Assembly: GCF_019449275.2 (NCBI RefSeq)
Contig: NZ_JAHZQZ020000002.1
Span: 1-64,000 of the forward strand
Length of the DNA stretch: 64,000 nucleotides
DNA from: Microbacterium sp. HD4P20
Lineage (GTDB): Bacteria > Actinomycetota > Actinomycetes > Actinomycetales > Microbacteriaceae
Direction of reading: 5' to 3'
Positions 47,819-63,598 of the stretch are shown here, one piece after another. The notes under the pieces were generated by a model. The model was not told where the DNA came from and did no database searches. It saw only the letters and a program-made list of their open reading frames with translations. Within the stretch, counting starts at the first letter, position 1; every line of letters begins with the position of its first letter. The translations under genes were made by a program, and so were the position numbers.

Positions 47819-49471
47819 ATGCCCACCGTCTCCGCCCACGTCGCCCTCACCCTCGCGCACCACATCGACCACGTCTTCGGGGTGATGGGCAACGGCAACG
47901 CCTACTTCCTCGATGCGCTCGAGCGCTCCACCGACGTGCACTTCACCGCGGTACGCCACGAGGCCGGGGGCGTGGTCGCCGCGGACGCCTTCCACCGGGC
48001 CTCCGGACGCCTCGCCGCCGCGACGGCGACGTACGGCGCCGGTTTCACGAACACGATCACGGCCCTTGCCGAGGCGGTGCAGGCCCACGTGCCGCTGGTG
48101 CTGGTCGTCGGCGACGAGCCGACGTCGGGCCCGCGCCCGTGGGACGTCGACCAGATCGCACTCGCGTCGGCCGTCGGCGCGCGCACCTACACCGTGGGCC
48201 GAACGGATGCCGCGGCCACGACCGTGATCGCGATCGAGCACGCGCTGACCTACCGGGTGCCGACGGTGCTCGCGATCCCCTACGACGTCGCGGCGCGCGA
48301 CGCCGGACCCCTGCCCCAGGCGCCGGAACCGCGGCTGCCGGACCCGCTCGCGCCGACGGGAGGATTCGCGCGGGCAACGGTGCGCGAGATCGCCGAGGCG
48401 CTCGCAGGCGCCCGCCGGCCCTTCCTGCTCGCCGGCCGGGGCGCCTGGATCTCAGGAGCCGGCGATGCGCTCGGCGCCCTCGCCGACGCCACCGGTGCCC
48501 TCACGGCTTCGACAGCACTCGGTCGGGGCGTGTTCCCGCGACCCGAGTTCGACCTCGGGGTCACCGGCGGGTTCGGAGCCGAGGGCGCCATGGACCTGGC
48601 TCGTCGGGCCGACGTCGCCGTCGTGTTCGGGGCATCCCTCAATCAGTTCACTATGCGGTTCGGCGACCTGTTCGCGCCGGGGACGCGCGTGTTCCAGGTC
48701 GACGTCGCGCCCACCGCGACCCACCCCCACGTCGCGGGCTACGTGCGCGGGGACGCCCGGCTGGTCGCCGAGGCGATCGCCCACGAGGTCCGCGCGATCG
48801 CGGCCGAGCCGAGCGACTGGCGCGACTCCGTCGACATCGCGGAGGCGCGAAAGCAAGAGACCGGCGATGCCCTCGCTCCCGACGGGCGGCTGGACCCACG
48901 GTCTGTCGCGAGCCGCATCGCCGAACTGCTGCCCGAGGATCGCGTGGTCGTCTCGGACGGCGGCCACTTCATCGGCTGGGCGAACATGTACTGGCCGGTC
49001 GCATCGCCCGACCGCATGATGATGGTGGGCACCGCGTTCCAGTCGATCGGGCTGGGCTGGCCGTCCGTGCCCGGAGCAGCGCTGGCGAAGCCCGAATCGA
49101 CGATCGTGCTCACCACCGGCGACGGTGGCGGCCTCATGGCGCTCGCCGACCTCGAGACGGCGGTGCGGGTCGCCGGCGGCCGCGGAATCGCCGTGGTGTG
49201 GAACGACGCGGCGTACGGCGCCGAGGTGAACCTCTACGGGCTCAAGGGGCTCGCGCAGGAGCCCATGCTCATCCCCGAGGTCGACTTCGCCGCCCTCGCC
49301 GCCGGCGTCGGCGCCGAGGGAGTCGTCGTGCGCACGCTCGACGATCTCGACCGTCTCGCGACGTGGGCGGCCGAGCCCGCGGCATCCCGCCGGTTCCTGG
49401 TGCTCGACTGCCGCATCTCGGGAACGATCGTCGCGCCGTACCAGCAGGAGATCATCCGCGTGAACTCCTAG
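47819..49471 (+). CDS. Thiamine diphosphate-dependent enzyme, acetolactate synthase/benzoylformate decarboxylase superfamily
   Basis: A 550-aa enzyme with the three POX-type domains. The N-terminal domain has the catalytic Glu in VRHEAGGVVAADAFHRASG; the C-terminal domain has the cofactor motif GDGGGLMALADLETAV with the Asn in WNDAAYG (GDG-x(n)-N). The central domain keeps the Rossmann-like fold but its FAD-binding pattern is weak, suggesting a decarboxylase or hydrolase rather than a true acetolactate synthase. No small subunit (ilvN) is present. Substrate unknown; given the hydroxylase and amine oxidase neighbours, a 2-oxo acid is plausible. AAGGGG precedes ATG 47819, just after the leader hairpin. 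Confidence 0.85.
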   Translation: MPTVSAHVALTLAHHIDHVFGVMGNGNAYFLDALERSTDVHFTAVRHEAGGVVAADAFHRASGRLAAATATYGAGFTNTITALAEAVQAHVPLVLVVGDEPTSGPRPWDVDQIALASAVGARTYTVGRTDAAATTVIAIEHALTYRVPTVLAIPYDVAARDAGPLPQAPEPRLPDPLAPTGGFARATVREIAEALAGARRPFLLAGRGAWISGAGDALGALADATGALTASTALGRGVFPRPEFDLGVTGGFGAEGAMDLARRADVAVVFGASLNQFTMRFGDLFAPGTRVFQVDVAPTATHPHVAGYVRGDARLVAEAIAHEVRAIAAEPSDWRDSVDIAEARKQETGDALAPDGRLDPRSVASRIAELLPEDRVVVSDGGHFIGWANMYWPVASPDRMMMVGTAFQSIGLGWPSVPGAALAKPESTIVLTTGDGGGLMALADLETAVRVAGGRGIAVVWNDAAYGAEVNLYGLKGLAQEPMLIPEVDFAALAAGVGAEGVVVRTLDDLDRLATWAAEPAASRRFLVLDCRISGTIVAPYQQEIIRVNS

Positions 49472-49636
49472 CCGGGCCTTGCGTCGTTCAGGGGGCGCAA
49501 CACGCGGCAACCCACCCCACGAGGCCGCAGAACGCGACACCCGAACCCCGCCGCGCGCCATCAGGCATCGGTCATGCACGGGCGGGCAAACGATCCGGCA
49601 GACGATCGGCGACAGTGGATCGTGGAGGAGAAGCGA

Positions 49637-51682
49637 ATGCCAGATCACACGACCACGTCCACGCACGCTCACGACCACGCAGGCGACAACCCCGACCTGC
49701 AGCCTGCCGTCCCGCCCCGCGCGACTCCGGCGCATCCGCTGGACCCGCTGAGCGCCGATGAGATCGAACGGGCGCGCGACATCCTCGAGGAGGGCGGATT
49801 CCTCGGCCCATCGGTGCGGGTTCCGATGATGCTGCCGCTCGAGCCGTCGAAGGAGCACCTGGCGGCATGGCGAGCCGGAGCCCCGATGGACCGTGGGGTC
49901 GACGTGACGCTCCTCGACACGCAGACCGGCGCCGTGGTGGAAGCGAAAGTGTCCATCACCAGCGACACCGTGCTCGAGCATCACGAATACCCCTCGACGC
50001 AACCGCCGTACGGTCAGCCGCAGTATCTGTTCGAGGAGTATGAGCGGGCGGCCGAGATCGTCAAGGCCTCCCCCGAATGGCGAGCGGCCATAACTCGTCG
50101 CGGGCTCGCTGACCGCATCGACCTGGCGTTCTGCACCCCGCTGGCGCCGGGATTCGTGGGGCGGGCCGAGGAGGTCGGGCGCCGGATCATCCGCTCGCTC
50201 ACGTTCTTGCGCGACAGCGAGGACGACATCGCATGGGCGCACCCCGTAGAGGGCCTCATCGTGCACATCGACCTCATCGAGAACCGCGTCATCGGGATCG
50301 AGGATGAGGGCGATGTCCCGGTTCCGACGGGAAGCGGGAAGTACACGCCGGATGCCGTGGGCCCGGCCCGCACCACGCTCAAGCCGATCGAGATCACCCA
50401 GCCCGAAGGCCCGAGCTTCCGCGTCACGGGATCGCTCGTGGAATGGGAGAACTGGTCGATGCGCGTCGACTTCAACGCGCGCGAGGGCCTGGTGCTGCAC
50501 GACGTGCGCTTCGACGGCCGGTCAGTGCTTGCGCGCGCGAGCGTGCCTGAAATGGTGGTGCCGTATGGCGACACCACGCCCACTCGCTTCTGGATCAGCT
50601 ACTTCGACGCCGGCGAGTACCTTCTCGGCAAGAACGCCAATCACCTCGAGCTCGGCTGCGACTGCCTTGGCGTCATCCATTACTTCGATGGTCACGTCGC
50701 GGACGACCACGGACACGCGGTGCGCATCCCCAACGTGGTGTGCATGCACGAAGAGGACTACGGGGTGCTGTTCAAGCACACCGAACTCGGTCCGGTGGGC
50801 GCGCACGTACGGCGCTCACGGCGCCTGGTGGTGTCGTACTTCTCGACGATCGGCAACTACGACTACGGCTTCTTCTGGTACTTCTACCTCGACGGATCCA
50901 TCCAGATGGAGACCAAGGCCACGGGCATCGTCTTCGTCGGCGGCGGGGAGCCGGGCTCGCACAACAGCCATGCCCCCGAGATCGCGCGGGGTGTCTTCGC
51001 TCCCGTGCACCAGCACCTGTTCAGCGCTCGCCTCGATGTCGCGATCGACGGGGAGGACAACCGCCTCGTCGAGATCGACGCGGTGCGCATCCCGATGGGC
51101 GAAGAGAACCCGTTCGGCAACGCCTTCACCTGGAACGAGACACCCGTGCGGAGCGAGGCCGAGGCCCAGCGGGAGGCTGACACCTCGACCGCCCGGGTCT
51201 GGGAGGTGCAGTCGGCGTCTCAGCGCAACGCCGTCGGCAGGCCGACGGCGTATCACCTGGTTCCCCAGCCCACCGCGCTGCTCATGGCCGACCCCGTCTC
51301 AACGGTCGCGGCCCGTGCCGCATTCGCCACCAAGCACTTGTGGGCAACGGCGTACGACCCGGAGGAACGGTGGCCGGCCGGACGCTATCCCAATGCCCAC
51401 CAGGGCGGCGGCGGCCTTCCGGCCTACACGGCAGACGACCGCTCGCTCGACGGCGAAGACATCGTGCTGTGGCACACGTTCGGGCTCACCCACATCCCCC
51501 GGCCGGAGGACTGGCCCATCATGCCCGTCGACTATGCGGGGTTCTGGTTCAAGCCGTACGGGTTCCTCGACCGGAACCCGGCGATGGACGTCCCAGAGTC
51601 CAGTCAGGCTCATGGGGGACGGGCCGGCGACGCGCAAGACGGCGGCTGCGGTCGAGGCGACGGCTGCACCTGCGGGCATTGA
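49637..51682 (+). CDS. Copper-containing primary-amine oxidase
   Basis: Oxidises primary amines to aldehydes with release of ammonia and hydrogen peroxide. The TPQ cofactor precursor is Tyr408 in IGNYDYGFFW; the catalytic base is Asp324 in YFDAGEYLLG; copper ligands are His458 and His460 (HQHLF) and His619 (LTHIPRPEDWP). Length 681 aa, a little above the Arthrobacter phenylethylamine and histamine oxidases. There is no signal peptide, so it is cytoplasmic. Both ends carry metal-binding-like extras: HAHDHA near residue 11 and a Cys-rich tail, GGCGRGDGCTCGH. GGAGGAG lies upstream of ATG 49637. A perfect terminator follows, beyond which a permease gene converges. Confidence 0.94.
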   Translation: MPDHTTTSTHAHDHAGDNPDLQPAVPPRATPAHPLDPLSADEIERARDILEEGGFLGPSVRVPMMLPLEPSKEHLAAWRAGAPMDRGVDVTLLDTQTGAVVEAKVSITSDTVLEHHEYPSTQPPYGQPQYLFEEYERAAEIVKASPEWRAAITRRGLADRIDLAFCTPLAPGFVGRAEEVGRRIIRSLTFLRDSEDDIAWAHPVEGLIVHIDLIENRVIGIEDEGDVPVPTGSGKYTPDAVGPARTTLKPIEITQPEGPSFRVTGSLVEWENWSMRVDFNAREGLVLHDVRFDGRSVLARASVPEMVVPYGDTTPTRFWISYFDAGEYLLGKNANHLELGCDCLGVIHYFDGHVADDHGHAVRIPNVVCMHEEDYGVLFKHTELGPVGAHVRRSRRLVVSYFSTIGNYDYGFFWYFYLDGSIQMETKATGIVFVGGGEPGSHNSHAPEIARGVFAPVHQHLFSARLDVAIDGEDNRLVEIDAVRIPMGEENPFGNAFTWNETPVRSEAEAQREADTSTARVWEVQSASQRNAVGRPTAYHLVPQPTALLMADPVSTVAARAAFATKHLWATAYDPEERWPAGRYPNAHQGGGGLPAYTADDRSLDGEDIVLWHTFGLTHIPRPEDWPIMPVDYAGFWFKPYGFLDRNPAMDVPESSQAHGGRAGDAQDGGCGRGDGCTCGH

Positions 51683-51693
51683 GCCGTTGATGC

Positions 51694-51735
51694 AAGAGGA
51701 AGAGACCGCGGAGATGTCCGCGGTCTCTTCCTCTT
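51694..51735. terminator. Perfect 19-bp stem bidirectional terminator
   Basis: AAGAGGAAGAGACCGCGGA (51694-51712) and its exact complement (51717-51735) surround a GATG tetraloop. It lies 12 nt after the amine oxidase stop and 17 nt after the stop of the convergent permease, so it serves both; the purine-rich outer arms give A/U-rich flanks. Confidence 0.93.
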
Positions 51736-51751
51736 CTTCGAGCGGTGGCGA

Positions 51752-53233
51752 TCAGACCGGAGCGAGCTCGTCGAAGCGCTCCAGGTCGTTGTTCAGCCCC
51801 TCGTAGATGTCGGGACGCTTCGTTCGCAGGTAGTGGGCGTACACCAGCCCGCCCACCACCGCGAGCACGAGAAGCCACGGCAACAGCTGCACGTAGAGGG
51901 CCTCCGAGCCTGCGACCAGCGTGAAGTTGGCGATCGCCATGATGCTGAACACCAAGAGCGCGATGAACCCGATACCGGGCGCGATGAAGGTGCTCCACCA
52001 CCGCGGATCACGCTTGCGACGGAAGTACACCACCACCGACAGCGCGGCGATCGCCTGCACGATCATGACCGCGAGGGTCGCGAATCCCAGCCCCACCGGC
52101 ACGAGGGTCAGCACGGGCGGGAGCGGGTTGCCCTCGGGGTCCGTCTCGACGAAGACGACGAAGATGCCTGCCACGACGAGCGAGAAGATGAAGTTCACGA
52201 GGAGCGCGCGCTGAGGTGCGCCGTTGCGGTTGGTGGTGGCGAGCCAGCGGGGCAGCACGCGAGCGCGCCCCAACGCGAACAGGTAGCGCGCGGCGGAATT
52301 GTGGAAGGCCAGCTGCGCCGCGAAGAGGCTGACGACGAGCAGCACGAGCGAGATCGCGCCGACGATGGGGCCGAGGTAGGTGTCGATCAGTATGAGCACG
52401 AGGTCTCCGGCGGCGATGCTGTCGAGCGCCGCGGCCTGCGCCTCGGGCACACCGAGCGCGCTCACGATGGCCCATCCGACGATCGCGTGGAGCACGCCGA
52501 TGATGATGATCGCAGCGTACGTCGCCCGGGGAATGGTGCGGCGCGGATCCTTCGCCTCCTCGCCGAAGAGCGCCGTGGCTTCGAAGCCGATGAACGCGGT
52601 GGCCACCAGAAGGAGCCCGATCCATATCGATCCCCCGACCAGGATCGTCGGGTCGAACGCTTGAGTGAAGGCCTCGATGCTGAAGCCCACCTGCACGAGC
52701 ACCGACACCGCGAAGGCGACGAGGATGGCGATCTCGAGGATGAGCGCGACACCCAGCACCGCTGCGCTGACGTGGATGCCCGAGCGGGCCAGAAGGAAGA
52801 CGATGACGAAGAGGATCACGGCCGCGACGTACCAGTGCACTTCGATGCCGAAGAGCGCGGGAAGCACGACGGCCCCGGTGAAGAACCCGATCGTGCCGAG
52901 TGCTCCCGCGACGAAGAAGTTGTAGCCGAGCGTCGCGATGATGCCGGTGACCAGACCTGCCGGGCGCCCCAGCCCCTTGACGGCGATGGCGTAGAAGCCG
53001 CCGGCGCTGACGAGGTCCTTCGTGATGGCGGCATACCCCACTGCGAACAGCAGCAGCGCGATCGCCACGATGATGACGGCGACCGGGATGCCGCCGCCGT
53101 TGCCGAAGGCGATCGCCAGCGGCAGGACGACGATGGCAACGGTGAGCGGGGCGACGGCGGCCAGGACGAGGAACACGATCGATGGCACGCCGAGCTGGTT
53201 CCGCTTGAGGCTGTCGTTTTCGGGTGTAGACAT
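51752..53233 (-). CDS. APC-family amino acid/amine permease
   Basis: Importer of 493 aa with about twelve to thirteen hydrophobic helices and the APC fold. Helix 1 has LAAVAPLTVAIVVLPLAIAF; later AFIGFEATALFGEEAKDPRR is the conserved helix 6/loop region of the family, and RYLFALGRARVLPRWLA the helix 8 loop. Specificity cannot be read, but convergent pairing with a copper amine oxidase and being downstream of an SDR/TetR pair suggest uptake of an amine or amino alcohol. A 132-nt gap separates it from the SDR gene; no strong terminator was seen in it. Confidence 0.9.
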   Translation of the reverse strand: MSTPENDSLKRNQLGVPSIVFLVLAAVAPLTVAIVVLPLAIAFGNGGGIPVAVIIVAIALLLFAVGYAAITKDLVSAGGFYAIAVKGLGRPAGLVTGIIATLGYNFFVAGALGTIGFFTGAVVLPALFGIEVHWYVAAVILFVIVFLLARSGIHVSAAVLGVALILEIAILVAFAVSVLVQVGFSIEAFTQAFDPTILVGGSIWIGLLLVATAFIGFEATALFGEEAKDPRRTIPRATYAAIIIIGVLHAIVGWAIVSALGVPEAQAAALDSIAAGDLVLILIDTYLGPIVGAISLVLLVVSLFAAQLAFHNSAARYLFALGRARVLPRWLATTNRNGAPQRALLVNFIFSLVVAGIFVVFVETDPEGNPLPPVLTLVPVGLGFATLAVMIVQAIAALSVVVYFRRKRDPRWWSTFIAPGIGFIALLVFSIMAIANFTLVAGSEALYVQLLPWLLVLAVVGGLVYAHYLRTKRPDIYEGLNNDLERFDELAPV

Positions 53234-53365
53234 GCGAACTCCTTCGGCCGGATGCAGAAGAGTCTGTCGACCGCCGTGCGGCGGCTGTTGCCGTACGGCG
53301 CGGGTTCTTTGACGCTCAGCGCACGGTGCGCCCGGCAGCGTGAAGCGTCCGCGTGGGACGCCGGC

Positions 53366-54166
53366 TCACATTCCGGCGCGCGCGAAGGCCGTCGTGGGCA
53401 GGTCGACGCTCGTGGCGCCGCCGTCGACCGGGATCACCGCGCCGCTGATGTAGGAAGAGGCCGGAGACGCCAGGAAGAAGATGACCTCGGCGATCTCCTG
53501 AGGCTCGGCCGGTCGCGCCAGGGGCACGTCGGCGGTGACGGTGCGGTAGGCGGCCGCCCGGTCGTCCAGTCTCGCCGCGTCGGCGAACTCGTCCATCTCG
53601 GCATCGGCCATGGGCGTGCGCACCCAGCCGGGGCAGATCGCATTCGCACGCACGCCGTCGCGACCGTAGTCTCGCGCGATCGATCTGGTCAATCCGATGA
53701 GGGCGTGCTTGGCCGTCGTGTAGCCGACCGTGCTCGGGCCGGCGGCCAGCCCTGCGAGCGAGGAGACGACGACCACGCTCCCCCGGGCCGCGCGGAGCCG
53801 GTCGATCGCGGCGCGCAGGAATACGAACGCCGACTCGAGGTTGCCCCGCATGCTGGCAGCCCAGTCCTCGTCGCTGGTATCGGCGAGCGCGGCGAACCCG
53901 TGTCCGCCGGCGTTGGCGACGACGGCATCCAGCCGACCGTGCTCCGCCATGATGGTGGCGACCGCGGCTTCGCTGTCGCGCGGATCGGCCGCATCTGCCG
54001 TGAGCGCCCGTGCGCCGATGCGCTCCGCGACTCTCTCGACGAGGGGGGCGCGGCGCCCGATGACGACCACGCGCCAGCCGGCCGCGGCGAATCGCGTCGC
54101 GGCGGCCTCGCCGATGCCCGTGCCGCCGCCGGTGATGGCGACCACCCGCTGATCATCGCCGGCCAT
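53366..54166 (-). CDS. Short-chain dehydrogenase/reductase
   Basis: Classical SDR of 266 aa. The NAD(P) motif TGGGTGIGEAAA is at residues about 11-22, NAG occurs in VVANAGGHGF, the catalytic Ser in VVVVSSLAGLA and the YxxxK pair in GYTTAKHALIG. The terminal ISGAVIPVDGGATS block is standard. The Asn-Ala-Gly and catalytic residues are complete, so it should be an active alcohol/ketone oxidoreductase; the substrate is unknown. Its start lies 14 nt inside the upstream tetR gene, so the two form one operon, and it may act on the alcohol or aldehyde side of the amine pathway. Confidence 0.9.
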   Translation of the reverse strand: MAGDDQRVVAITGGGTGIGEAAATRFAAAGWRVVVIGRRAPLVERVAERIGARALTADAADPRDSEAAVATIMAEHGRLDAVVANAGGHGFAALADTSDEDWAASMRGNLESAFVFLRAAIDRLRAARGSVVVVSSLAGLAAGPSTVGYTTAKHALIGLTRSIARDYGRDGVRANAICPGWVRTPMADAEMDEFADAARLDDRAAAYRTVTADVPLARPAEPQEIAEVIFFLASPASSYISGAVIPVDGGATSVDLPTTAFARAGM

Positions 54167-54776
54167 GCTGTCCTGCCTCGCCGTGGCGTGCCGTCTTCAG
54201 TCCGTCCAGGAGGCAGCGGATCGCGCGCACGAATCGCTCGGCCGATTCGGGGTCGCGCGCGGCCGCGATCCCGGCATCCCGAAGGCTGGACGACAACAGG
54301 ACCGCCAGCGACTCGGGGTCGGCGTCGGCCGAGAGCTCGCCGCGTTCTCTCGCCGCCGCCAGCTCGGCACCGATGGCTTCGCGGTAGCCGCGGGAACCGG
54401 CCCCACCACCTTCGCGGAATCCCACGAGGGCCGGGCCCGACACGCTGTAGAAACGCCCGAGCGCGCCGCCGCTCGAGAACTCGATCATCGTGCGCGCGTA
54501 CTCCTCGATGCGCTCTTCCCACGCGTCGAAGGCGGCGACCCGGGCACGGGCGAGATCCAGCAGCATGCGACCCGCCCGGTCGTACGCCGCCCGCAGCATC
54601 TCGTCGCGACCGTCCGGAAAGTGCGCGTACACGGTGGCGCGTGCCACACCCGCTCGCTCCGCGATGCTCTCGATGGTGGCGGCTCCGAGGCCTCCGTCCT
54701 CGATGAGACCCAGGGTGGCGGTGAGGATGTCGTCGCGCATCACACTGCGACGTCTTTCCCGAGCGGCGGTGGTCAT
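54153..54776 (-). CDS. TetR-family transcriptional regulator
   Basis: A 207-aa repressor-type protein with the HTH at residues about 15-55 (GAATIESIAERAGVARATVY then AHFPDGRDEML) and a helical ligand-binding domain. The SDR gene overlaps its end, and the APH kinase gene is divergent from it across 80 nt containing a dyad at 54795-54813. It probably represses both its own operon and the kinase/PLP operon. ATG at 54776 has GAGGCTCG just upstream. Confidence 0.9.
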   Translation of the reverse strand: MTTAARERRRSVMRDDILTATLGLIEDGGLGAATIESIAERAGVARATVYAHFPDGRDEMLRAAYDRAGRMLLDLARARVAAFDAWEERIEEYARTMIEFSSGGALGRFYSVSGPALVGFREGGGAGSRGYREAIGAELAAARERGELSADADPESLAVLLSSSLRDAGIAAARDPESAERFVRAIRCLLDGLKTARHGEAGQHGRR

Positions 54777-54794
54777 CGAGCCTCACTAGAACGA

Positions 54795-54813
54795 GAGTCT
54801 GGAAACTGGACTC
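54795..54813. promoter_or_regulatory. TetR operator candidate upstream of the kinase/PLP operon
   Basis: GAGTC (54795-54799) and GACTC (54809-54813) form a 19-nt dyad around TGGAAACTG in the divergent region of tetR and the kinase gene. The site is 19 nt from the tetR start. Size and position fit a TetR operator; the arms are short. Confidence 0.5.
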
Positions 54814-54856
54814 CGAGTATGGCATAGTGACGCCACGACCACCAGAGAGGTTTCCG

Positions 54857-55900
54857 ATGGAGATCGATGCCGCCTTCGAACTCGTGCAACGCACCCTTCC
54901 GCTGTACGGGATGGATCAGGAGTGCGCGGTGACGTTCGTGAAGTACCGCGAGAACCACGTCTTCCGCGTCGATGCACCCGACGGCGGCTCGGTTGCGGTG
55001 CGCCTGCATCGCCCGGGTTATCGCGATCAGCAGGAGATCCTCACCGAGCTCGCATATCTCGATGCCCTCGGCAGAGCCGGTGTTCCTGTCCCTGATGTGC
55101 TGCGCGCCCAAGACGGACGCCTCGTGTGCGACGTCGCCGTCGGCGAGCACGCGCGCAGCGTGTCCGTGCAGCGGTGGATAGACCACGCGACCCCCTTCGG
55201 CGACATCGACGGCGCGCTCTCCGGTCGCCATGACCCGCCCGCCGCGCAGTTTCGTGACATCGGCGTCGTGCTGGCCCGGCTGCACGACGCCGAAGCCATG
55301 GTCGGTCGACCGGGTTCCTTCCGGCGCGACGCCTGGGACGCGGATGGACTCGCGGGCAGCCGCCCCCTGTGGGGCGATCCGGCAGCGCTGCCCGGCCTCA
55401 CGCCGAGGGACAGGGATTCGGTGGCTCGCGGGAAGGTCCACGTTCACCGCAGGCTACGGGCGCTCGACACAGGTCCCGAGGTTTTCGGCATCATCCACGC
55501 GGATGCGACGCCCGAGAACGTGCTGATCACCCCCGACGGCGTCGTGCTCATCGACTTCGACGACTTCGGCACGGGGTGGTTCGCCTTCGATCTGGTGACG
55601 GCGCTCTTCCACCACGCGCGCAACCCCCGCTACCCCGAGTTCGAGCGCGCCCTCCGCGACGGGTACTCGGAACTGCGCCCGCTCCCGCCCGCCGAGGAAT
55701 CCGCGTGGGACGACCTCATGCTGGCGCGCGGCCTGACGTACCTGGGGTGGGCCGCCGAGCGGCCCGGCGACCCGGCCTCCGATTTCATCACCGAGGTCGT
55801 CGCTCCGTGGGTCGCTCGCATCGCCGACGCCGCCACCGCGGGCGAACCGGCCCCCTGGCGCGTGAGGGCGCTCGACGACGAACGACAGGAACACCGATGA
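54857..55900 (+). CDS. APH-type phosphotransferase (hydroxylysine kinase-like)
   Basis: Small-molecule kinase of 347 aa with the aminoglycoside phosphotransferase/choline kinase fold. The N-lobe has VTFVKYRENHVFRVD and the Lys-equivalent basic strand VAVRLHRPGY; the catalytic loop is IIHADATPENVL (Asp acting as base, Asn for metal) and the metal Asp is in LIDFDDFGTGW. Its gene overlaps a class III aminotransferase-fold gene by ATGA. That pairing is known from hydroxylysine kinase plus 5-phosphohydroxylysine phospho-lyase, so phosphorylation of an amino alcohol is the best guess; an aminoglycoside resistance role is less likely. AGAGAGG precedes ATG 54857. Confidence 0.82.
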   Translation: MEIDAAFELVQRTLPLYGMDQECAVTFVKYRENHVFRVDAPDGGSVAVRLHRPGYRDQQEILTELAYLDALGRAGVPVPDVLRAQDGRLVCDVAVGEHARSVSVQRWIDHATPFGDIDGALSGRHDPPAAQFRDIGVVLARLHDAEAMVGRPGSFRRDAWDADGLAGSRPLWGDPAALPGLTPRDRDSVARGKVHVHRRLRALDTGPEVFGIIHADATPENVLITPDGVVLIDFDDFGTGWFAFDLVTALFHHARNPRYPEFERALRDGYSELRPLPPAEESAWDDLMLARGLTYLGWAAERPGDPASDFITEVVAPWVARIADAATAGEPAPWRVRALDDERQEHR

Positions 55901-57189
55901 CCGAAGATCTGCTCGAGCGACGCTTCGCCACCATCGGACGCCACTCGCCGCTGTTCTACGACCAGCCCGTTCACCTCGTCTCGGGTTCGGGGGTGTGGCT
56001 GACCGATGCGGATGGGCGCCGGTACCTGGACGCCTACAACAACGTGCCGCACGTGGGGCACGCCCACCCCCGCGTCGTCGAGGCGCTGTGCCGCCAGGCA
56101 GCGACCCTCAACATCCATACGAGGTACCTCGACGAACGCGTCGTCGAATACGCCGAGGAGCTGCTCGGCCGCTTCGAGCCCGAGCTCGATCGCGTGGTGT
56201 TCGCCAACAGCGGTTCGGAGGCGAACGAGCTCGCCTTCCGCGTAGCCCTGCAGCACACGGGCGCCCGCGGCATCCTGGTCACGGATTACAGCTACCACGG
56301 CAACACCTCGCTGCTGGCCGGGCTCACCACCGGGCTCAAGACGCACGAGGGACTCGCGCCGCACGTGCGTTCGTTCCCGGTGCCCGATATGGACGCCGCC
56401 GCCAACGATGGGCGGGACCCCGCCGTTGTGCGCGACGAAGCACTCCGCCACGTCGACGAGGCCATCGACCAGTTGCTGGGATCGGGCTTCGGGGTCGCCG
56501 CGGTCATCGTGGAGTCGATCTTCTCCACCGAGGGTCTTCCCCGCGTGCCGGCCGGCTTCGTCGAAGGCGTCGCCGCTCGCGTACGAGCGGCTGGCGGACT
56601 GGTGATCGGCGATGAGGTCCAGGCGGGACTGGGACGCACCGGGAGCACGTTCTGGGGCTATCAGCGATATGACCTCGTTCCCGACCTGGTGACGCTGGGC
56701 AAGCCGCTCGGCAACGGCCACCCGCTGGCGGCCACTGTCACGACGGCGGCGCTGTGGGAAGAGTTCGGCGCCCGCAACGAGTTCTTCAACACCTTCGCCG
56801 GCAATCCGGTTTCGTCCGCGGTGGGTCTGGAAGTGCTGCGGATCATCGACGACGAGGGTCTCTTCGCCCGATCGGCGCGTCTCGGTTCTGTCATCCGCAG
56901 CGACCTGACACAGCTGACCGCCCAGCACGATCGGCTCGGCCCGGTCAAAGGCGACGGACTGTTCTTCGGCTTCTCGGTGTTCGAGGATGCCGGTCATGCG
57001 CGCCCGGACGGCCCGGCCACGCGCCGACTGGTGGAGGAGGTGAAGCGACGTGGTGTTCTGCTCAGCCGCATCGGTCCGACCGGATCGGTGCTGAAGATCC
57101 GGCCGCCCCTCGCCCTGCAGGACGAGGACGTCCCGACTCTGACGGGTGCGCTGCGCGAGTCCGTCCTGACCGTTCTCGGTCAGCCATGA
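55897..57189 (+). CDS. Class III PLP enzyme, probable amino-alcohol-phosphate phospho-lyase
   Basis: A 430-aa fold type I PLP enzyme. FANSGSEANELAFRVA binds the cofactor phosphate, DYSYHGNT and GDEVQAGLGRTGSTFWGY carry the ring-contacting Asp region, and the Schiff-base Lys is in LVTLGKPLGNGHP. The TLGKPLGNGHP context and YNNVPHVGHAHPRVV block match the AGXT2L (ethanolamine-phosphate and phosphohydroxylysine phospho-lyase) group rather than GABA aminotransferases. Such enzymes release phosphate and ammonia to leave an aldehyde, which would feed the aldehyde dehydrogenases nearby. It overlaps the kinase gene, so both are made together. Group assignment is from motif resemblance; reaction is inferred. 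Confidence 0.82.
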   Translation: MTEDLLERRFATIGRHSPLFYDQPVHLVSGSGVWLTDADGRRYLDAYNNVPHVGHAHPRVVEALCRQAATLNIHTRYLDERVVEYAEELLGRFEPELDRVVFANSGSEANELAFRVALQHTGARGILVTDYSYHGNTSLLAGLTTGLKTHEGLAPHVRSFPVPDMDAAANDGRDPAVVRDEALRHVDEAIDQLLGSGFGVAAVIVESIFSTEGLPRVPAGFVEGVAARVRAAGGLVIGDEVQAGLGRTGSTFWGYQRYDLVPDLVTLGKPLGNGHPLAATVTTAALWEEFGARNEFFNTFAGNPVSSAVGLEVLRIIDDEGLFARSARLGSVIRSDLTQLTAQHDRLGPVKGDGLFFGFSVFEDAGHARPDGPATRRLVEEVKRRGVLLSRIGPTGSVLKIRPPLALQDEDVPTLTGALRESVLTVLGQP

Positions 57190-57347
57190 CGGGCCCGTGA
57201 CTCCCCGGACGTCGCGTTGACACAGCCGTAACACCGCTGGGGCCACCGCGAAACCTCTCGCAGCGAAGATCGAGTGACTGCGGCGAGAGAAGGGTGTAAA
57301 GTGCCACTGATCATATACGATCCTAGTTTCACGATGGGGTGAGACCG

Positions 57348-58298
57348 ATGACTACCCGATACGCATTCCCTCCCGCCTCTCCCGCCAGCGTCCTGGCGCT
57401 ACCGGACTACCGCGCGGCGGTCGGCGACGCGGTGGTCGCCCTCGATGTGCAAGCCGAGGCTCCGTCGAGCTTTCGCGGCGCGATTCGGGGGCAGTCCATC
57501 GGCGACGTGCACGTCCTCGGCATCGCCGCCGACGCGCACTCGGTCCATCGCACCGAGACGCTCATCAGGACGACGGCTCAGCACTACTTCAAGTTCACGC
57601 TGGTCGAACAGGGCGCCGGCCTCATCGTCCAGAACGGTCGCGAGACGGCGCTGAGCGCCGGAGACATGACCTTCTACGACACCGATCGCCCCTACTCGCT
57701 CATCTGCGCCGACGACACCCGCGTGTCGGTCGTCATGTTCCCGAAGGACCTTCTCGCCCTTCCGGCCGACCTGATCACCCGGCTGACAGCCACCAAGCTC
57801 GGCGCCGACTCCCCGGTGGGCGCGATCGTCCGCCCGTTCGTCGCCTCCCTGTCCGGGCAGATCGGCGAGCTCGACCCCTATGCGCTGCGCCGACTGTCAC
57901 GAGGCGCCATCGACATGATCTCGACGCTCATCGAGGACGGCGTCGATGCGCGCGTGGCCGAGTCGGCGCACGAGACCCTCGTGCGCCAGGTCCTGGACTA
58001 TATCGACGAGCACCTGCCGTCGCCCGACCTCTCCCCGCCCACGATCGCCTCCGCACACTTCGTCTCGGTGCGGCATCTGCACGCCGTGTTCAACGACCAG
58101 GGCACCACCGTCTCTACGGTTATCCGCAACCGCCGGCTCGAGCGATGCTATGACCAGCTCATCGATCCCCGATCGGCGGAGCGGTCAGTGACGGCGATCG
58201 CGTTGGACAACGGGTTCGTGGATGCCGCTCACTTCAGCCGTACCTTCCGTGCGCACTACGGCGTGCCGCCGAGCGCCATTCGTCCTCGGCGCCCCTGA
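57348..58298 (+). CDS. AraC-family transcriptional activator (FeaR-like)
   Basis: A 316-aa regulator. The N-terminal half matches the AraC-binding-like domain of FeaR/NphR proteins (QHYFKFTLVEQGAGLIVQNG, AGDMTFYDTDRPYSL), and the C-terminal 100 residues hold two HTH motifs (PPTIASAHFVSVRHLHAVFN, then VTAIALDNGFVDAAHFSRTF). In E. coli FeaR activates an amine oxidase and aromatic aldehyde dehydrogenase. Here it stands between the kinase/PLP operon and, convergent, an ABC/amidohydrolase operon, so it is a good candidate activator of the catabolic genes. GGGGTGAG precedes ATG 57348. Confidence 0.88.
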   Translation: MTTRYAFPPASPASVLALPDYRAAVGDAVVALDVQAEAPSSFRGAIRGQSIGDVHVLGIAADAHSVHRTETLIRTTAQHYFKFTLVEQGAGLIVQNGRETALSAGDMTFYDTDRPYSLICADDTRVSVVMFPKDLLALPADLITRLTATKLGADSPVGAIVRPFVASLSGQIGELDPYALRRLSRGAIDMISTLIEDGVDARVAESAHETLVRQVLDYIDEHLPSPDLSPPTIASAHFVSVRHLHAVFNDQGTTVSTVIRNRRLERCYDQLIDPRSAERSVTAIALDNGFVDAAHFSRTFRAHYGVPPSAIRPRRP

Positions 58299-58307
58299 AC
58301 CCGATCG

Positions 58308-59309
58308 TTACGCCGCCATCGCGAGGCTCCGGGCTTTCGCGGCAGCCAGCCGGACCCGCAGCACGTGCGTGACGGCGCTGAGCCCGATCGCGATGATGAG
58401 CGCCAGGCCACTCGCCACGGCCTGCCAGAAGGTGGTCACGCCCAGGAGCACGAGCGAGTTGTTGAGCGCGCCGTAGAAGAGCACCCCGACGACCACGCCG
58501 AAGATCGTCCCTTCGCCGCCGGTGAGTGCGACGCCGCCGAGGAGCACGGCGGTCAGCACCACCAGCTCGAAACCGGCTCCGAGCTGACCCGCCGGGGCGC
58601 TGTTGAGGCGCGCGATCACGATGGTCCCCGCGAACCCGGCCATCGCGCCGGAGAGGACGAACAGTCCGAACGGCAGCGTCTTGACCCGGACGCCGGAAAG
58701 GTAGGCGGCCTCGCGATTCACGCCGACGGCGTAGACGTGCCGGCCCGTCGGCGTGAAGGCGAGGAAGATCCCGGCCAGGATCAGCAGCACCGTCGCGATC
58801 CAGACCGAGAGAGGGATCCCGGCCACAGTGCCGACTCCGAGCAGGCCGAACTCGTCGCCGAAGTTGTTACGCGGCGTGGGGCTGATCAGCTGTGCGACAC
58901 CACGCACGGCGGTGAGGGTGCCGAGCGTCGTGATGAAGGAGTTCAACCCCAGGACGGTGACCACGAAGGCGTTGAAGAGGCCCACTGCCGCCCCCGCCGC
59001 GATCGCGAGGATGATGGCCACCATCGGGTTGCCCGAAGCCTTGTCCATCACCAGCGAGGCCACCACCCCGCCGAGCGCGAGGGTCGACCCTACCGACAAG
59101 TCGATGTATCCGGCGATGAGGAGCATCGCGACCGGGATGGCGACGATGGCGATCACCGCGCTGTCCTGCAGGATGCCGCGGATGTTCTGCCACCCGAAGA
59201 AGGCGTCCGTGGCGATCTGCACCCCGATCACCATCACGATCAGCACGATCAGCAGCGGGCTGCGCACGATCCCTCCGAGCGCGGCGCTGACGAAGCGGTT
59301 GTCTGTCAT
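58308..59309 (-). CDS. Ribose-type ABC transporter permease
   Basis: RbsC-like permease of 333 aa with about ten membrane spans. The signature region GVALTGGEGTIFGVVVGVLFYGAL, near residue 250, and GIIVTAIPV-like loop (AIVAIPVAMLLIAGYIDLSVG) are typical; the latter, with IDLSVGS, contacts the ATPase. It overlaps the ATPase gene by ATGA. With the ATPase and binding protein it forms an importer for a pentose, polyol or similar compound; no rbsD or rbsK is present, so ribose itself is not assumed. Confidence 0.9.
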   Translation of the reverse strand: MTDNRFVSAALGGIVRSPLLIVLIVMVIGVQIATDAFFGWQNIRGILQDSAVIAIVAIPVAMLLIAGYIDLSVGSTLALGGVVASLVMDKASGNPMVAIILAIAAGAAVGLFNAFVVTVLGLNSFITTLGTLTAVRGVAQLISPTPRNNFGDEFGLLGVGTVAGIPLSVWIATVLLILAGIFLAFTPTGRHVYAVGVNREAAYLSGVRVKTLPFGLFVLSGAMAGFAGTIVIARLNSAPAGQLGAGFELVVLTAVLLGGVALTGGEGTIFGVVVGVLFYGALNNSLVLLGVTTFWQAVASGLALIIAIGLSAVTHVLRVRLAAAKARSLAMAA

Positions 59310-60838
59310 CGGATCGTTCCTTCGGGGATGTCGATGATGCGGGTATCGGGTGTGGTGTCGTGTACGGCAGACAGCAGTCCGTCGGCCGAGGTCTCCGAGA
59401 CCACGAGCTCGTCCACGACGGCTCCGCGCGCGAAGATGAGGCAGCGGTGGGCGAGGTCGACGACCTCTTCGGGTTCGTTGGTGGCGATCAGCACTCCGAC
59501 GCCGCGCTCCGCGGCGAGGCGCTTGACCGCGTCATAGATGTCTTTGCGGGCGCCGACGTCCACGCCCTGAGTGGGGTCGTCCAGCAGCATCACGCGCGTT
59601 CGGGCAGCGTCGTTCACCCACCGCCCGAGGAGGATCTTCTGCTGATTGCCTCCGCTGAAGCGCGCCGCCGGAAGCTCCGGGCTGACGGGCTTCAGCGAAA
59701 GCCAGGAGGCCACGCGATCGAACACGGACCGTTCAGCCGCGAGCGACCGGAAACCGCCCCGGCCCAAGCGGCGCATGGAGTTGACGACCGTGTTGTCGAG
59801 CGCGCTGAGCGAGCCGAAGAGCCCCTCCTTCGCCCGGTCGCTCGGCACGAGCGCGATTCCCCCTTTCAGCGCGCGCGCCGGCGACGAGGCGTCGCGCGGC
59901 ACGCCGTCGACACTCAGCGTCCCTCCCGATCGAGGGAGGCGACCGAAGAGCGTGCCGAAGAACCGCGTTCGGCCCGAGCCGATCAGTCCATAGCACGCGA
60001 CGATCTCTCCGGGAGCGACGGTGAGGTCGATCGGCCCCAGTCCCGGCCCCGTCAAGCCGCGAACCGCGAGCACCGGAGTGTCGGCGTAGCGCGGCGGCGC
60101 GGCGGGCTCGTGCGTCGCGCCGTGCCCGTCGCTGATCGCAGCGACCAGCGAGTCGCGAGTGATCGCCTCCCCGCGAGCCGACCAGACCGACCGGCCGTTG
60201 CGCATGACCGTGGCCGCGTCGGCCAGCTTGAGGACCTCGCCGAGAAGGTGCGTGACGTACAGGATGGCGATGCCACGGCCGGCAAGTTCGCGAACGAGTT
60301 CACCCAGGCGTTCCGCCTCGGCCCGCGAGAGCGCCGCTGTCGGCTCGTCCAGTATCAGGAGGCGCGCGTCGCGTTGGAGGACCTTGGCGATCTCCACCAT
60401 CTGCCGCTGGCCGATCGGCAAAGCGCCGACCTTCATGTCGGGATCGATGCCGTGCGCTCCGACTCTGGCAAGGGACTCACGGGTGAGTTCACGCTGCTCG
60501 CGGCGTCGGATCAGGCCCGCACGCGTGCGCTCCTGACCGATGAACAGGTTCTCGGCCACCGTGAGGTTCTCCAGCACGCTCAGATGCTGGTAGATGACCG
60601 CGACGCCGGCGCCGATCGCCTCTCGAGGAGAGAGGCCGGAGACCTCGCGGCCGTCCAGCTCGATCGTTCCGGAGCTGGGATGGACGCCCCCGCCCAGGCA
60701 CTTGATCAGAGTCGACTTTCCGGCGCCGTTGTGGCCGAGGAGGGCGTGCACTTCTCCGTCCGGGATGTGCAGGGTGACGTCGTCGAGGGCGACGGTCGCG
60801 CCGTAGCGCTTGGTGAGACCGTGGACGGCGACCGCCAT
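59306..60838 (-). CDS. Ribose-type ABC transporter double ATPase
   Basis: RbsA-like ATPase of 510 aa with two nucleotide-binding domains. The first has Walker A LLGHNGAGKST, signature region LPIGQRQMVEIAK and Walker B LLILDEPTAAL. The second has a degenerate Walker A (CYGLIGSGRTRFF), signature FSGGNQQKILLGRW and Walker B VMLLDDPTQGVDVG, the normal asymmetric pattern. ATG at 60838 has GGGAG 5 nt upstream; a GTG two codons earlier overlaps the ribosome site. It is 59 nt downstream of the binding-protein gene. Confidence 0.93.
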   Translation of the reverse strand: MAVAVHGLTKRYGATVALDDVTLHIPDGEVHALLGHNGAGKSTLIKCLGGGVHPSSGTIELDGREVSGLSPREAIGAGVAVIYQHLSVLENLTVAENLFIGQERTRAGLIRRREQRELTRESLARVGAHGIDPDMKVGALPIGQRQMVEIAKVLQRDARLLILDEPTAALSRAEAERLGELVRELAGRGIAILYVTHLLGEVLKLADAATVMRNGRSVWSARGEAITRDSLVAAISDGHGATHEPAAPPRYADTPVLAVRGLTGPGLGPIDLTVAPGEIVACYGLIGSGRTRFFGTLFGRLPRSGGTLSVDGVPRDASSPARALKGGIALVPSDRAKEGLFGSLSALDNTVVNSMRRLGRGGFRSLAAERSVFDRVASWLSLKPVSPELPAARFSGGNQQKILLGRWVNDAARTRVMLLDDPTQGVDVGARKDIYDAVKRLAAERGVGVLIATNEPEEVVDLAHRCLIFARGAVVDELVVSETSADGLLSAVHDTTPDTRIIDIPEGTIR

Positions 60839-60897
60839 GTCCACTCCCTTCGTGAGTGCGGGGTCGGGGCGGATCCATTCCGCCCCGACCGTGATGG

Positions 60898-61902
60898 TCA
60901 GCCGCCGAGTTCAGCGATGTAGGTCGCGAGGTTGGGGTCGTCGGCGGTCACGACCGTGACCGGCAGGTCGACGCTCGCGTCTTCGTCACCCTCCCCGAGG
61001 GCGATGGGGATGTCGATCACATTGGCAACGAGCTCTTCGAGCGAGAAGAAGGTGGCCGCGCGGAAGAATCCGCCTTCCTGCATCTTCTGCAGCAGGAACA
61101 CATTGGGATCGAGTCCCCCGACGTACGTGCTGGGGTCGTCCTCTGCGCGCCCCGAAGCCACCAGCGCCTGGTAGGCCCCCTGGGCGGCGTCTCCGACGGC
61201 GGAGACGACGATGTTGACGTCGGGATGCTGCGCGAGCAGGGCGGTCGTCACCGTCAGCCCCTCGTCGGGGGTGACGGCCTGCTGCTCGGCGACGATCTGC
61301 AGGTCGGGAGCAGTCTCGAGCAGGCCGTCGAGGAGCCCTTGAGTCCTCTCCTTTCCGATCTGACGCTCCGTCTCGTTCAGCACGATGACCTTCGCGTCGG
61401 GTCCGACATTCTCGAGGGCCCATTCGGCGGCGTTCTGACCGACGTCGTACCCGGACTGGTAGAAGCTGAACTGCAACGTCGCGTCCTGGTTCTCCATGTC
61501 GCCGCCGTAGGTGACCCAGTACTTCCCGGCGTCGCGGTACTGCTGCGCGATGCCTTCCAGGCTCGCCGGATCCACCGGGAACGACACGACGGCGTCGACG
61601 TCGCTGGTGAGGAACGTGTTGAGTTGGCTCACCTGCTTCTGAAGGTCCATCTCGTCATTCGTGAAGACGATCTCGACGCCCTTCTCGGCGGCGCGCGCTT
61701 CGACGATGCTCACGATCGCCCCGTATACCGGCAGCGCCGTGAACGGGTAGTCGAAGAGGATCTTGTCGACGGTGCCGCGTTCGGTCGGTGCCGCACTTTC
61801 CCCACCGCCCGCGTCGTCGGCAGTGGTGGTGCTGCAGCCCGAGAGGACGAGGCCGGCGGCGATCGCCGTGACCGTGGCGGTGATGCGGATGCTGTGCTTC
61901 AT
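60898..61902 (-). CDS. Ribose-type ABC transporter substrate-binding lipoprotein
   Basis: A 334-aa binding protein with signal peptide and lipobox LVLSGC. It shows the type 1 fold of RbsB relatives: DAVVSFPVDPASLEGIAQQY in the N-lobe and VNIVVSAVGDAAQGAYQALV in the C-lobe (the D in a typical ligand-contact loop is replaced by a G-D pair). AAGGAG precedes ATG 61902; the longer frame has no such site. It heads the ABC part of an operon whose first gene is an amidohydrolase, 46 nt upstream. The ligand is unknown and may not be a sugar. Confidence 0.88.
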   Translation of the reverse strand: MKHSIRITATVTAIAAGLVLSGCSTTTADDAGGGESAAPTERGTVDKILFDYPFTALPVYGAIVSIVEARAAEKGVEIVFTNDEMDLQKQVSQLNTFLTSDVDAVVSFPVDPASLEGIAQQYRDAGKYWVTYGGDMENQDATLQFSFYQSGYDVGQNAAEWALENVGPDAKVIVLNETERQIGKERTQGLLDGLLETAPDLQIVAEQQAVTPDEGLTVTTALLAQHPDVNIVVSAVGDAAQGAYQALVASGRAEDDPSTYVGGLDPNVFLLQKMQEGGFFRAATFFSLEELVANVIDIPIALGEGDEDASVDLPVTVVTADDPNLATYIAELGG

Positions 61903-61948
61903 GGTGCTCCTTGGTTGTGTGCTTCGGGTGACAGCGGACGCTGATGCG

Positions 61949-63598
61949 TCAGCGGGCATAGACCTCGCGGCCGGCGAACCACGTCTGGACCGCGTGGGTG
62001 TCGACGAGGCGTTCGATGGGCACGGTGTATGGGTCCTGATCGAGGACGACGAAGTCGGCGGACTTCCCCGGCGTCAGTGATCCGGTCACGTCGTCGACGC
62101 CCATCGCCTTGGCGCCGTTGATCGTGAAGACCTCGAGCGCTTCGTGGAGCGTGATGGCCTGTTCGGGCCAGAGTCGGCCCGGAGTGCGTCCGAGCGGGTC
62201 GGCCCGGGTTACCAGACCCTGGATTCCCTCCCAGGGGTTCGGCGAGACGCTCACAGGCCAGTCGGATCCGCCCGCGACCAGAACCCCGAGGTCGATCAGT
62301 TCGCGATTCGGCTGCATCTCGTGGGCGTCGGGCTGGGCGCGAACCTGCGCGATCGCATCCGGGATGACACCGGGGAACCACAGGTACGGCGAGATGTCGG
62401 CCGACACGTCCAGCGCCGCGAACCGGGGCCGGTCCTGCGGATGGACGAACTGTCCATGGGCGATCTGATAGCGCACGCCGGAGTGGCCCGCCTCGCGCAC
62501 GCTCTCGATCGCGTCGAGTGCGACGCGAACCGCGGCGTCGCCCGTGCAATGGATCTTCGCACCAAGGCCCTGGGCGGCGGTGCGCAGCAGCCAGGACTCG
62601 AGCTCGGCCGGCTCCATCGTCGTGACGCCGCAATGATCGTGGCCGTGCTCCTCGTCGGGAAGGTACGGCGTGAGGAACGCCGCCGTGTGCGTCGGCGGCA
62701 CGCCGTCCAGTGCGACCTTCACGAAATCCGGCCGGTGGTGAACGCTTCTGAACTCCTCGCGACGAGCGACCAGTTCATCCCCGAAGGGGGTGTTGGCGAA
62801 CAGGAAGCCGCTGGACAACAGCGACGAGACGACCCACGCGTGCAACTGGCCGTCGGCGTCGAGGTCTCGGAGGGCCCCCATGATCTCGACGGTGGCCGCG
62901 GCATCCTGGAAGGCTGTGATTCCGTAGGAGTGCAGGATCTCGATCGCGCGCGCGCTCGCACGACGGTATCGCTCGGGGGTGCGCTGGAGGCTGGCGTCGA
63001 CAGCCTCTGTCACGGCGATCGTGGCGGCTTCCATGAGAAGCCCGGTAGGTTCTCCCGTCACGGGGTCGCGGACGATGCGGCCCTGATGCGGGTCCGGGGT
63101 CTCGTCCGTGATGCCGGCCGCCCGCAGAGCGGCGGTGTTCGCGAACCGGTTGTGGTGGCTGTCGTCGGTGAGCACGACCGGACGCCCGCCTGCTGCCTCA
63201 TCGATCCGCCGCCTGGCCTCGACGCGCGAGAAGTCGTCCAGGAGCAGGCTCCCGAACGCTTCGCCGATCACCCAATCGCCGGGCGCCAGAGCATCGGCAT
63301 AGGCCCGCACCGCCTCCACTACGGCTTCGAAGGAGTCCGTGGGTGCGAAGCCGAGCTGGAAGAGGTCCGCCTCCCCCGCCATGAGGTGATGGTTGTGGAC
63401 GTCCACCAGTCCGGGAAGGATCGCGGCACCGCCCAGGTCGCGGATCTCGGTTGCGGGACCGGCCAGGGAACGGATCTCTTCGTCCGACCCGACGGCGAGA
63501 ATCCGCCCGCCGGCGACGGCGAGCGCGGTCGCCTGCGGGAGGGCGGGATCGAGGGTATGAACCACGGCGTTGGTGAGGACGAGGTCGGCAGCGCTCAT
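61949..63598 (-). CDS. YtcJ-type amidohydrolase
   Basis: Amidohydrolase_3 family protein of 549 aa. The metal-binding strand-1 motif is GLVDVHNHHLMAGE, with further ligands in YQIAHGQFVHP and the Asp in VAGGSDWPVS; the KIHCTGDAAVRVALD block contributes another His. Such enzymes hydrolyse amides, carbamates or N-acyl groups with one or two zinc ions. AAGGAG precedes ATG 63598. It is first in the operon with the ribose-type ABC importer, so it may act on the imported compound, for example freeing an amine from an amide. No signal peptide; cytoplasmic. Confidence 0.88.
   Translation of the reverse strand: MSAADLVLTNAVVHTLDPALPQATALAVAGGRILAVGSDEEIRSLAGPATEIRDLGGAAILPGLVDVHNHHLMAGEADLFQLGFAPTDSFEAVVEAVRAYADALAPGDWVIGEAFGSLLLDDFSRVEARRRIDEAAGGRPVVLTDDSHHNRFANTAALRAAGITDETPDPHQGRIVRDPVTGEPTGLLMEAATIAVTEAVDASLQRTPERYRRASARAIEILHSYGITAFQDAAATVEIMGALRDLDADGQLHAWVVSSLLSSGFLFANTPFGDELVARREEFRSVHHRPDFVKVALDGVPPTHTAAFLTPYLPDEEHGHDHCGVTTMEPAELESWLLRTAAQGLGAKIHCTGDAAVRVALDAIESVREAGHSGVRYQIAHGQFVHPQDRPRFAALDVSADISPYLWFPGVIPDAIAQVRAQPDAHEMQPNRELIDLGVLVAGGSDWPVSVSPNPWEGIQGLVTRADPLGRTPGRLWPEQAITLHEALEVFTINGAKAMGVDDVTGSLTPGKSADFVVLDQDPYTVPIERLVDTHAVQTWFAGREVYAR

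Follow-up and report, generated by a model that had tools for sequence, protein, structure and literature searches.

In the 64,000-nucleotide stretch analysed here (positions 1 to 64,000 of contig NZ_JAHZQZ020000002.1 of Microbacterium sp. HD4P20, hereafter the window), two forward-strand genes encode a small-molecule kinase of the APH fold (54857-55900; 347 amino acids; PF01636, E 8e-25) and a class III enzyme of the phospho-lyase type dependent on pyridoxal phosphate (PLP) (55897-57189; 430 amino acids; PF00202, E 2e-74, 251 bits). On sequence and structural models the two can safely be read as what is very probably a kinase and phospho-lyase pair. We further propose, as a probable though less secure interpretation, that they successively convert an octopamine-like primary arylethanolamine to an arylacetaldehyde, the substrate and reactions being suggested by the gene neighbourhood; the predicted products are an arylethanolamine kinase and an arylethanolamine O-phosphate phospho-lyase. 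The genes share an ATGA at 55897-55900, in which the ATG of the PLP enzyme (55897-55899) overlaps the TGA of the kinase (55898-55900), and both open reading frames (ORFs) are intact. ORFs, Pfam matches and sequence agree on this point with the original prediction, which had described the same two folds as overlapping at ATGA.

The best sequence matches of the PLP enzyme in the Protein Data Bank (PDB) are 5g4i (E 3.5e-155) and human ETNPPL (6tor, E 2e-87), with dialkylglycine decarboxylase and transaminases ranking below both. It is 56% identical to A1RDF1, the protein of 5g4i/5g4j, and 39% identical to human ETNPPL, and only 29-34% identical to the eight other class III matches of its own genome. 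The AlphaFold model (mean pLDDT 93) retrieves chains of 5g4i and 6tor as the first four fold matches in the PDB and superposes on 5g4i/5g4j with template modelling (TM) scores of 0.95-0.97. Residues K269, D239, K400 and R402 are invariant among the 39 sequences aligned, the enzyme having both the PLP lysine (K269) and the aspartate (D239) expected of Aminotran_3 phospho-lyases, and Lys400 is shared with 5g4i and 6tor and replaced by Arg in three aligned class III outgroup enzymes. The motifs NNVxHVGH, [TS]R[YF]L and [LFM]K[IVM][RK]PP, derived in this analysis rather than from a curated source, are present and common to the phospho-lyase group. The enzyme is closer to phospho-lyases than to transaminases; the outgroup of the lyase tree comprised three of the eight other class III matches. 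Models of kinase-PLP enzyme fusions were scored far under their cut-offs (PRK06148, 439 against 1128; PRK06149, 333 against 973), and the two genes are separate. Where the original prediction had proposed structure prediction and alignment as a check, the outcome sides with 5g4i and ETNPPL (AGXT2L1), and its suggestion of a kinase with a phospho-lyase-type enzyme, as opposed to a transaminase operon, is borne out by sequence, fold, residues and pairing. Among the 120 best lyase homologues many entries are nameless, and wherever a source name is shown it is that of an aminotransferase (for example ‘aspartate aminotransferase family protein’), so that public databases seem to misname the family.

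In the kinase, residues H214, D216, N221 and D233 of the HADxxPEN and IDFDD motifs are invariant among 36 aligned homologues. The kinase model (pLDDT 95) has 6ef6 as its nearest fold (27% identity, E 2e-20), followed by amicoumacin kinases, and a profile match to the aminopropanol kinase of the RMM/Aaum system (E 5.7e-75) places it among the APH kinases related to that enzyme.

A scan of a genome collection confirmed at least 512 lyase relatives, of which the best 80 were kept, giving 81 loci with the window. A kinase homologue (at least 60 bits) is present in 77 of these 81, within 500 nt of the lyase gene in 70 and within 2 kb in 75, and 64 loci have the two genes in same-strand tandem within 200 nt. 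The pairing is not due to chance, and the conserved pairing that the original prediction had put forward as a check is found. Its remark that a free-standing bacterial version with its own regulator appears little described is wrong or incomplete, given the 5g4i structure of A1RDF1 and the frequency of such pairs in bacteria; the pairing is already known in kind, and what is new is its genomic setting. Four alphaproteobacterial loci (L075, L081, L082 and L084) have no homologue of the window kinase scoring at least 60 bits and carry an APH/choline-ethanolamine-kinase-like gene instead (L075:2590-3714), together with an aldehyde dehydrogenase (ALDH) gene; this clade is likely the truer ethanolamine version. 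Of 198 genomes of the genus Microbacterium, the one studied here included, 2 have the lyase (E <= 1e-120) and 3 have the kinase (E <= 1e-30), and the pair is therefore an accessory module. Base composition was considered as a sign of recent transfer and set aside, since the GC contents of the kinase (0.70) and lyase (0.68) genes are close to that of the window (0.69) and give no signal. Scans for consensus promoters and terminators in 54600-57600 and for tandem repeats in 50000-60000 found none.

The genes that accompany the pair in other genomes point to an aromatic substrate, with the caveat that the genomes counted are related and not independent. In two Streptomyces loci (L028:5935-8763 and L034:5842-8760) the lyase and an ALDH occupy one open frame, and the ALDH parts score 877 and 884 against the cut-off of 800 of the phenylacetaldehyde dehydrogenase model NF045736 (StyD). 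The L028 genome also has HpaD (386 against 321) and HpaE (674 against 638) within about 6 kb of the fusion, followed by two HpaG-like matches that were identified without curated-model scores. NF045736 is passed in 3 of 29 lyase-bearing genomes and in none of 14 controls, and all three passing genes are fused to the lyase gene or lie 7.6 kb from it; in G232, a 751-bit match under the cut-off lies 5.0 kb from the lyase. In a Paraburkholderia locus (L067), an ALDH gene 1.3 kb upstream passes the other StyD model, NF045735 (924 against 850), and an ALDH gene is likewise situated in L068, L073 and L074, recorded by presence and not by model scores. A Brevibacterium locus (L140) presents HpaD, HpaE and an HpaG-like gene on one strand, then phenol 2-monooxygenase, kinase, lyase and a FeaR-like gene, with an SDR gene opposite; here HpaD scores 425 against 321, HpaE 643 against 638, the HpaG-like gene 784 against 444 (PRK12764) and the phenol 2-monooxygenase 1002 against 560. 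A second Brevibacterium (L019) likewise has the phenol hydroxylase and HpaG-like gene in place.

Regulators and oxidases of amines recur in the same neighbourhoods. FeaR and MoaF are proteins of monoamine regulons. In 21 of the 81 loci a FeaR-like gene (at least 180 bits) lies no more than 500 nt downstream of the lyase gene, and a MoaF relative comes next in 12 of 80 loci, all from Leucobacter (Pfam-confirmed in L112, from the same genome as L022). The proximity of copper amine oxidase was assessed in a sample of 30 hand-chosen loci, mostly from Actinobacteria, of which 29 were searched (L013 was left out): the gene lies on the lyase contig within 21 kb in 9 of the 29 genomes and at 55 and 66 kb in two more, and is absent from 5. 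Outside that sample it is also near the lyase in the window, G146, L130 and L131. Locus L130 (Mycobacterium) combines PaaZ, FeaR-like, StyD, TetR, kinase, permease, lyase and amine oxidase genes, and L131 (Nocardioides) combines amine oxidase, StyD-like, permease, lyase and kinase genes. HpaD exceeds its cut-off in 27 of 41 lyase-bearing genomes and 3 of 14 controls, and in the genome studied here as well. Among these 28 HpaD-bearing genomes it lies within 35 kb of the lyase in 7 (0.56 expected) and within 70 kb in 14 (1.12 expected), where the expectation assumes uniform placement and is rough, as the genomes are related and the two genes are on different contigs in 12 of the 28. The mere presence of HpaD was dropped as evidence and adjacency alone used, because FeaR-type genomes all belong to Micrococcales and most other Micrococcales searched carry HpaD. 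On the contig studied here, genes of the paa and hpa pathways follow 14-26 kb downstream of the pair, beyond the window: PaaA (contig 71510-72499), PaaZ (73466-75574), HpaE (80761-82371) and HpaD (82600-83487) are over their cut-offs, and an HpaG-like gene (78451-80061) falls short of the HpaG C-terminal model.

Within the window, the neighbours named in the original prediction (TetR repressor, SDR, APC permease, copper amine oxidase and ALDHs) are present by Pfam. The TetR gene (54153-54776, reverse strand; PF00440, E 5.5e-12) is divergent from the kinase and 80 nt away from it. In the divergent promoter region, a block at 54795-54824 with inverted GAGTC/GACTC arms stands out as conserved in an alignment of the window with L009, L010 and L011; it is a candidate TetR operator and suggests local repression. 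The SDR gene (53366-54166, reverse strand; PF13561/PF00106) overlaps the TetR gene by 14 nt. Its best NCBIfam model is meso-2,3-butanediol dehydrogenase, under cut-off (206 against 270), and a PDB search that placed 2,3-butanediol dehydrogenase first of 701 matches was not informative; the protein is possibly an amino-alcohol or amino-ketone dehydrogenase. SDRs of the window's group (at least 230 bits) occur in 9 of 80 loci and also near copper amine oxidase in Leucobacter and in Microbacterium islands without the kinase. The APC-family permease (51752-53233, reverse strand; PF13520, E 4.7e-29), likely an importer, is under the cut-offs of all 10 NCBIfam models listed, and a PDB search with it returned no match. 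An AraC-family FeaR-like regulator (57348-58298, forward strand; PF14525 and PF12833) begins 158 nt 3' of the lyase gene; the original prediction mentions neither this regulator nor the phenol 2-monooxygenase described below. It is adjoined by a sugar-type ABC transporter (58308-61959, reverse strand), beyond which lies a PF07969 amidohydrolase (61949-63598, reverse strand; 301 bits) that might release amines from amides. In 18 of 80 lyase loci the fetched flanks contain a relative of this amidohydrolase at 100 bits or more, and in 7 of these the score is at least 400 bits.

On the other side of the permease, the copper amine oxidase (49574-51682, forward strand) is AGAO-like, with phenylethylamine oxidase as its best PDB match (E 2e-187) and a PRK11504 score of 842 against a cut-off of 651. 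A thiamine pyrophosphate (TPP)-dependent enzyme (47678-49471, forward strand) lies 5' of it; related TPP enzymes are seen in L097 and at the edge of L110. Further out are an IclR/PcaR-type regulator (46600-47361, forward strand, approximate start; PF09339 and PF01614), which at 77.7 bits is under the TIGR02431 cut-off of 285, and a flavin-dependent enzyme of the phenol 2-monooxygenase family (about 44545-46473, reverse strand, the start estimated from the hidden Markov model match; PRK08294, 974 against 560), a candidate 4-hydroxyphenylacetate hydroxylase. An ALDH (42899-44422, reverse strand; PF00171) is best matched by a succinate-semialdehyde dehydrogenase (SSADH) model, under its cut-off (571.6 against 646), and a further ALDH match crosses the right edge of the window (contig 63863-65185).

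How might these genes work together? We propose that the APC permease would import the amine and the kinase would phosphorylate its benzylic (beta) hydroxyl. The lyase would then form an external aldimine with PLP, in which the amine-bearing carbon would lose its proton and the beta carbon its phosphate, and hydrolysis of the released enamine would give the arylacetaldehyde and ammonia; the chemistry would be that of the phosphoethanolamine lyase reaction on a substrate whose beta carbon bears an aryl group. Oxidation of the arylacetaldehyde would yield (4-hydroxy)phenylacetate, which could be hydroxylated by the phenol 2-monooxygenase and its ring opened by the homoprotocatechuate (hpa) pathway of the same contig. 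The AGAO-like oxidase may offer a parallel entry by converting tyramine-like amines, which lack the beta-hydroxyl, to the same aldehydes, and the SDR would perhaps act between the amino-alcohol and amino-ketone forms. Regulation probably falls to TetR and the FeaR-like protein, the latter suggesting induction with the amine regulon. A PLP external aldimine requires a primary amine, and for this reason octopamine, phenylethanolamine and noradrenaline fit, whereas synephrine and adrenaline do not. Given the hpa pathway and the phenol hydroxylase, a 4-hydroxyphenyl substrate is favoured and with it octopamine; in loci close to paa genes, phenylethanolamine is a fitting substrate. The import, phosphorylation, elimination and aldehyde oxidation that the original prediction had outlined for an amino alcohol remain the best reading of the region. 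Its pointers to ethanolamine and hydroxylysine give way to aromatic beta-hydroxyamines, as suggested by the AGAO-like oxidase, the FeaR-like gene, the phenol hydroxylase and the hpa/paa genes; the original prediction had listed the oxidase without recognising its AGAO (phenylethylamine oxidase) kind.

Several observations weigh against an aromatic substrate. The nearest solved kinase, 6ef6, is titled a microcompartment-associated aminopropanol kinase, and A1RDF1 is reportedly active on phosphoethanolamine. In the window, the pair shares no operon with the copper amine oxidase, the phenol hydroxylase or the ALDH, and amine oxidase within 21 kb of the lyase is missing from 20 of the 29 genomes searched. 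The window ALDH (42899-44422) is not of the StyD kind, its scores of 392 and 355 being far under the cut-offs of the StyD models, and no ALDH of the genome passes NF045736, the StyD model searched genome-wide; PaaK was not found over its cut-off in the genome either. Of 11 ALDHs scored from the relatives' loci, only those of L028, L034 and L067 pass a StyD model, that of L052 is a truncated StyD-like piece, those of L039, L045, L056 and L075 fit best, under cut-off, the aminobutyraldehyde dehydrogenase model PRK13473, and those of L076, L120 and L122 have no model match at E 1e-120. Neither FeaR nor amine oxidase is found in the fetched loci of Arthrobacter L021/L039 and the A1RDF1-like L031. 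HpaD is present in 16 of 16 FeaR-type and 11 of 25 other lyase genomes, a pattern that follows taxonomy. The FeaR-like protein itself is under the cut-off of the FeaR model NF007243 (143 bits against 199), as are its relatives in L010 and L112 (152 and 153), and it possibly works like FeaR all the same.

The alternative that draws most on these points is a microcompartment-free pathway for an aliphatic amino alcohol, with ethanolamine or 1-amino-2-propanol as substrate and the SDR linking aminoacetone and aminopropanol. It finds support in the 56% identity of the lyase to A1RDF1, in the aminopropanol kinase 6ef6 as nearest kinase fold, and in a weak resemblance of the permease to the ethanolamine permease model TIGR00908 (66 bits against 382), and it perhaps accounts for the recurrent amidohydrolase too. 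The RMM1 loci, as described in an excerpt of PMC4207490, hold a matching set of hydrolases, SDR, amino acid permease, phosphotransferase and aminotransferase, and an excerpt of PMC8007038 names the Aaum/RMM compartment and cites work on the aminopropanol kinase and dehydrogenase. No microcompartment family turned up among the ORFs scanned with Pfam, which were not every ORF, and the recurrent partners of the pair are instead aromatic (StyD fusion, phenol 2-monooxygenase, hpa, paa, MoaF and AGAO-like oxidase), while the L075-type clade has a choline/ethanolamine-kinase-like gene of its own. We regard the aliphatic pathway as rather unlikely.

Aromatic neighbours likewise set back hydroxylysine catabolism, together with plain ethanolamine: a hydroxylysine kinase and a 5-phosphohydroxylysine phospho-lyase would have the same two folds as the animal pair, yet no lysine or aminoadipate gene is among the identified neighbours, and this is the least probable of the alternatives. 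That the PLP enzyme is an ordinary omega-transaminase beside an unrelated kinase would agree with its class III fold and with the aminotransferase names of its best homologues. It is nevertheless very improbable, as the nearest relatives by sequence and fold are phospho-lyases, identity to the eight class III relatives of the same genome is 29-34%, Lys400 stands in place of the Arg of the three aligned relatives, and in 75 of 81 loci the kinase gene is no more than 2 kb away. An octopamine-like arylethanolamine remains our preferred substrate.

Comparison with known systems shows which parts of the proposal have precedent. A1RDF1 of Arthrobacter aurescens TC1 has the same family and fold and is also a free-standing bacterial enzyme; the window's lyase clade has ESIFSTEG and GPTGS where A1RDF1 has DPLFSTEG and GPHDN, and L031, the nearest relative of A1RDF1 in the set, has neither a FeaR-like gene nor an amine oxidase in its fetched locus. 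The animal enzymes HYKK/PHYKPL and ETNPPL (AGXT2L1/2) share the class of chemistry and differ in organism, substrate and the absence of an aromatic catabolic island. The statement in the original prediction that hydroxylysine and ethanolamine represent the only well-known partnership of the two folds must be widened, as the RMM/Aaum microcompartment of Mycobacterium smegmatis has an (S)-1-amino-2-propanol kinase (6ef6), the closest solved kinase. That system resembles the window in its related kinase, SDR, permease, hydrolases and aminotransferase; it differs in that the kinases are 27% identical by fold alignment, the neighbours here are of aromatic-amine type and no shell gene is seen among the ORFs scanned. 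The FeaR/TynA-type monoamine regulon of E. coli and Klebsiella has in common the FeaR-like gene, the copper amine oxidase and the MoaF of relatives, and to our knowledge it has no kinase-lyase branch for beta-hydroxylated amines. Octopamine dehydratase (EC 4.2.1.87) is a Pseudomonas activity converting octopamine to 4-hydroxyphenylacetaldehyde and ammonia, for which we know of no gene; by its description the net conversion is the same, whereas the proposed route would spend ATP via the O-phosphate.

The island around the amine oxidase also exists without the pair. Copper amine oxidase (E <= 1e-100) is found in 85 of 198 Microbacterium genomes, and among 20 regions around strong matches selected from these 85, the pair occurs in one (G146) and a FeaR-like gene in 16 of the other 19. 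Five pairless islands (L092, L093, L096, L099 and L101) hold phenol hydroxylase, IclR, amine oxidase, FeaR-like, SDR and APC permease genes, their SDR being of the window's group (289-335 bits); L097 is the same island without an SDR of that group, and the other 13 pairless regions diverge more. The pair and its TetR gene therefore seem to have been added to an aromatic-amine island. Two independent origins of FeaR adjacency were considered and dropped, since an approximately unbiased (AU) test holding 24 rows together, including the unlabelled relatives L023, L025 and L049, does not reject a single clade (p 0.523); the adjacency label requires 3 changes on the lyase tree and 4 on the kinase tree, the latter with long-branch warnings.

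We tentatively hypothesize, at somewhat less than even confidence, that the pair represents the missing bacterial gene set for deamination of octopamine, phenylethanolamine and noradrenaline by ATP-dependent phosphorylation and PLP-dependent phosphate elimination, such that ‘octopamine dehydratase’ would here be a kinase and a phospho-lyase, with the amidohydrolase freeing amines from plant hydroxycinnamoyl amides. Literature searches on octopamine, phenylethanolamine, synephrine and phospho-lyase gave no description of this route among the matches listed. If correct, the model would add aromatic beta-hydroxyamines, among them the neuroactive octopamine and noradrenaline, to the small aliphatic amino alcohols and hydroxylysine already associated with the kinase and phospho-lyase device. 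It would also provide candidate genes for a deamination of which we know only the activity, and database labels of the lyase's nearest relatives, ‘aspartate aminotransferase family protein’ among them, would need correction.

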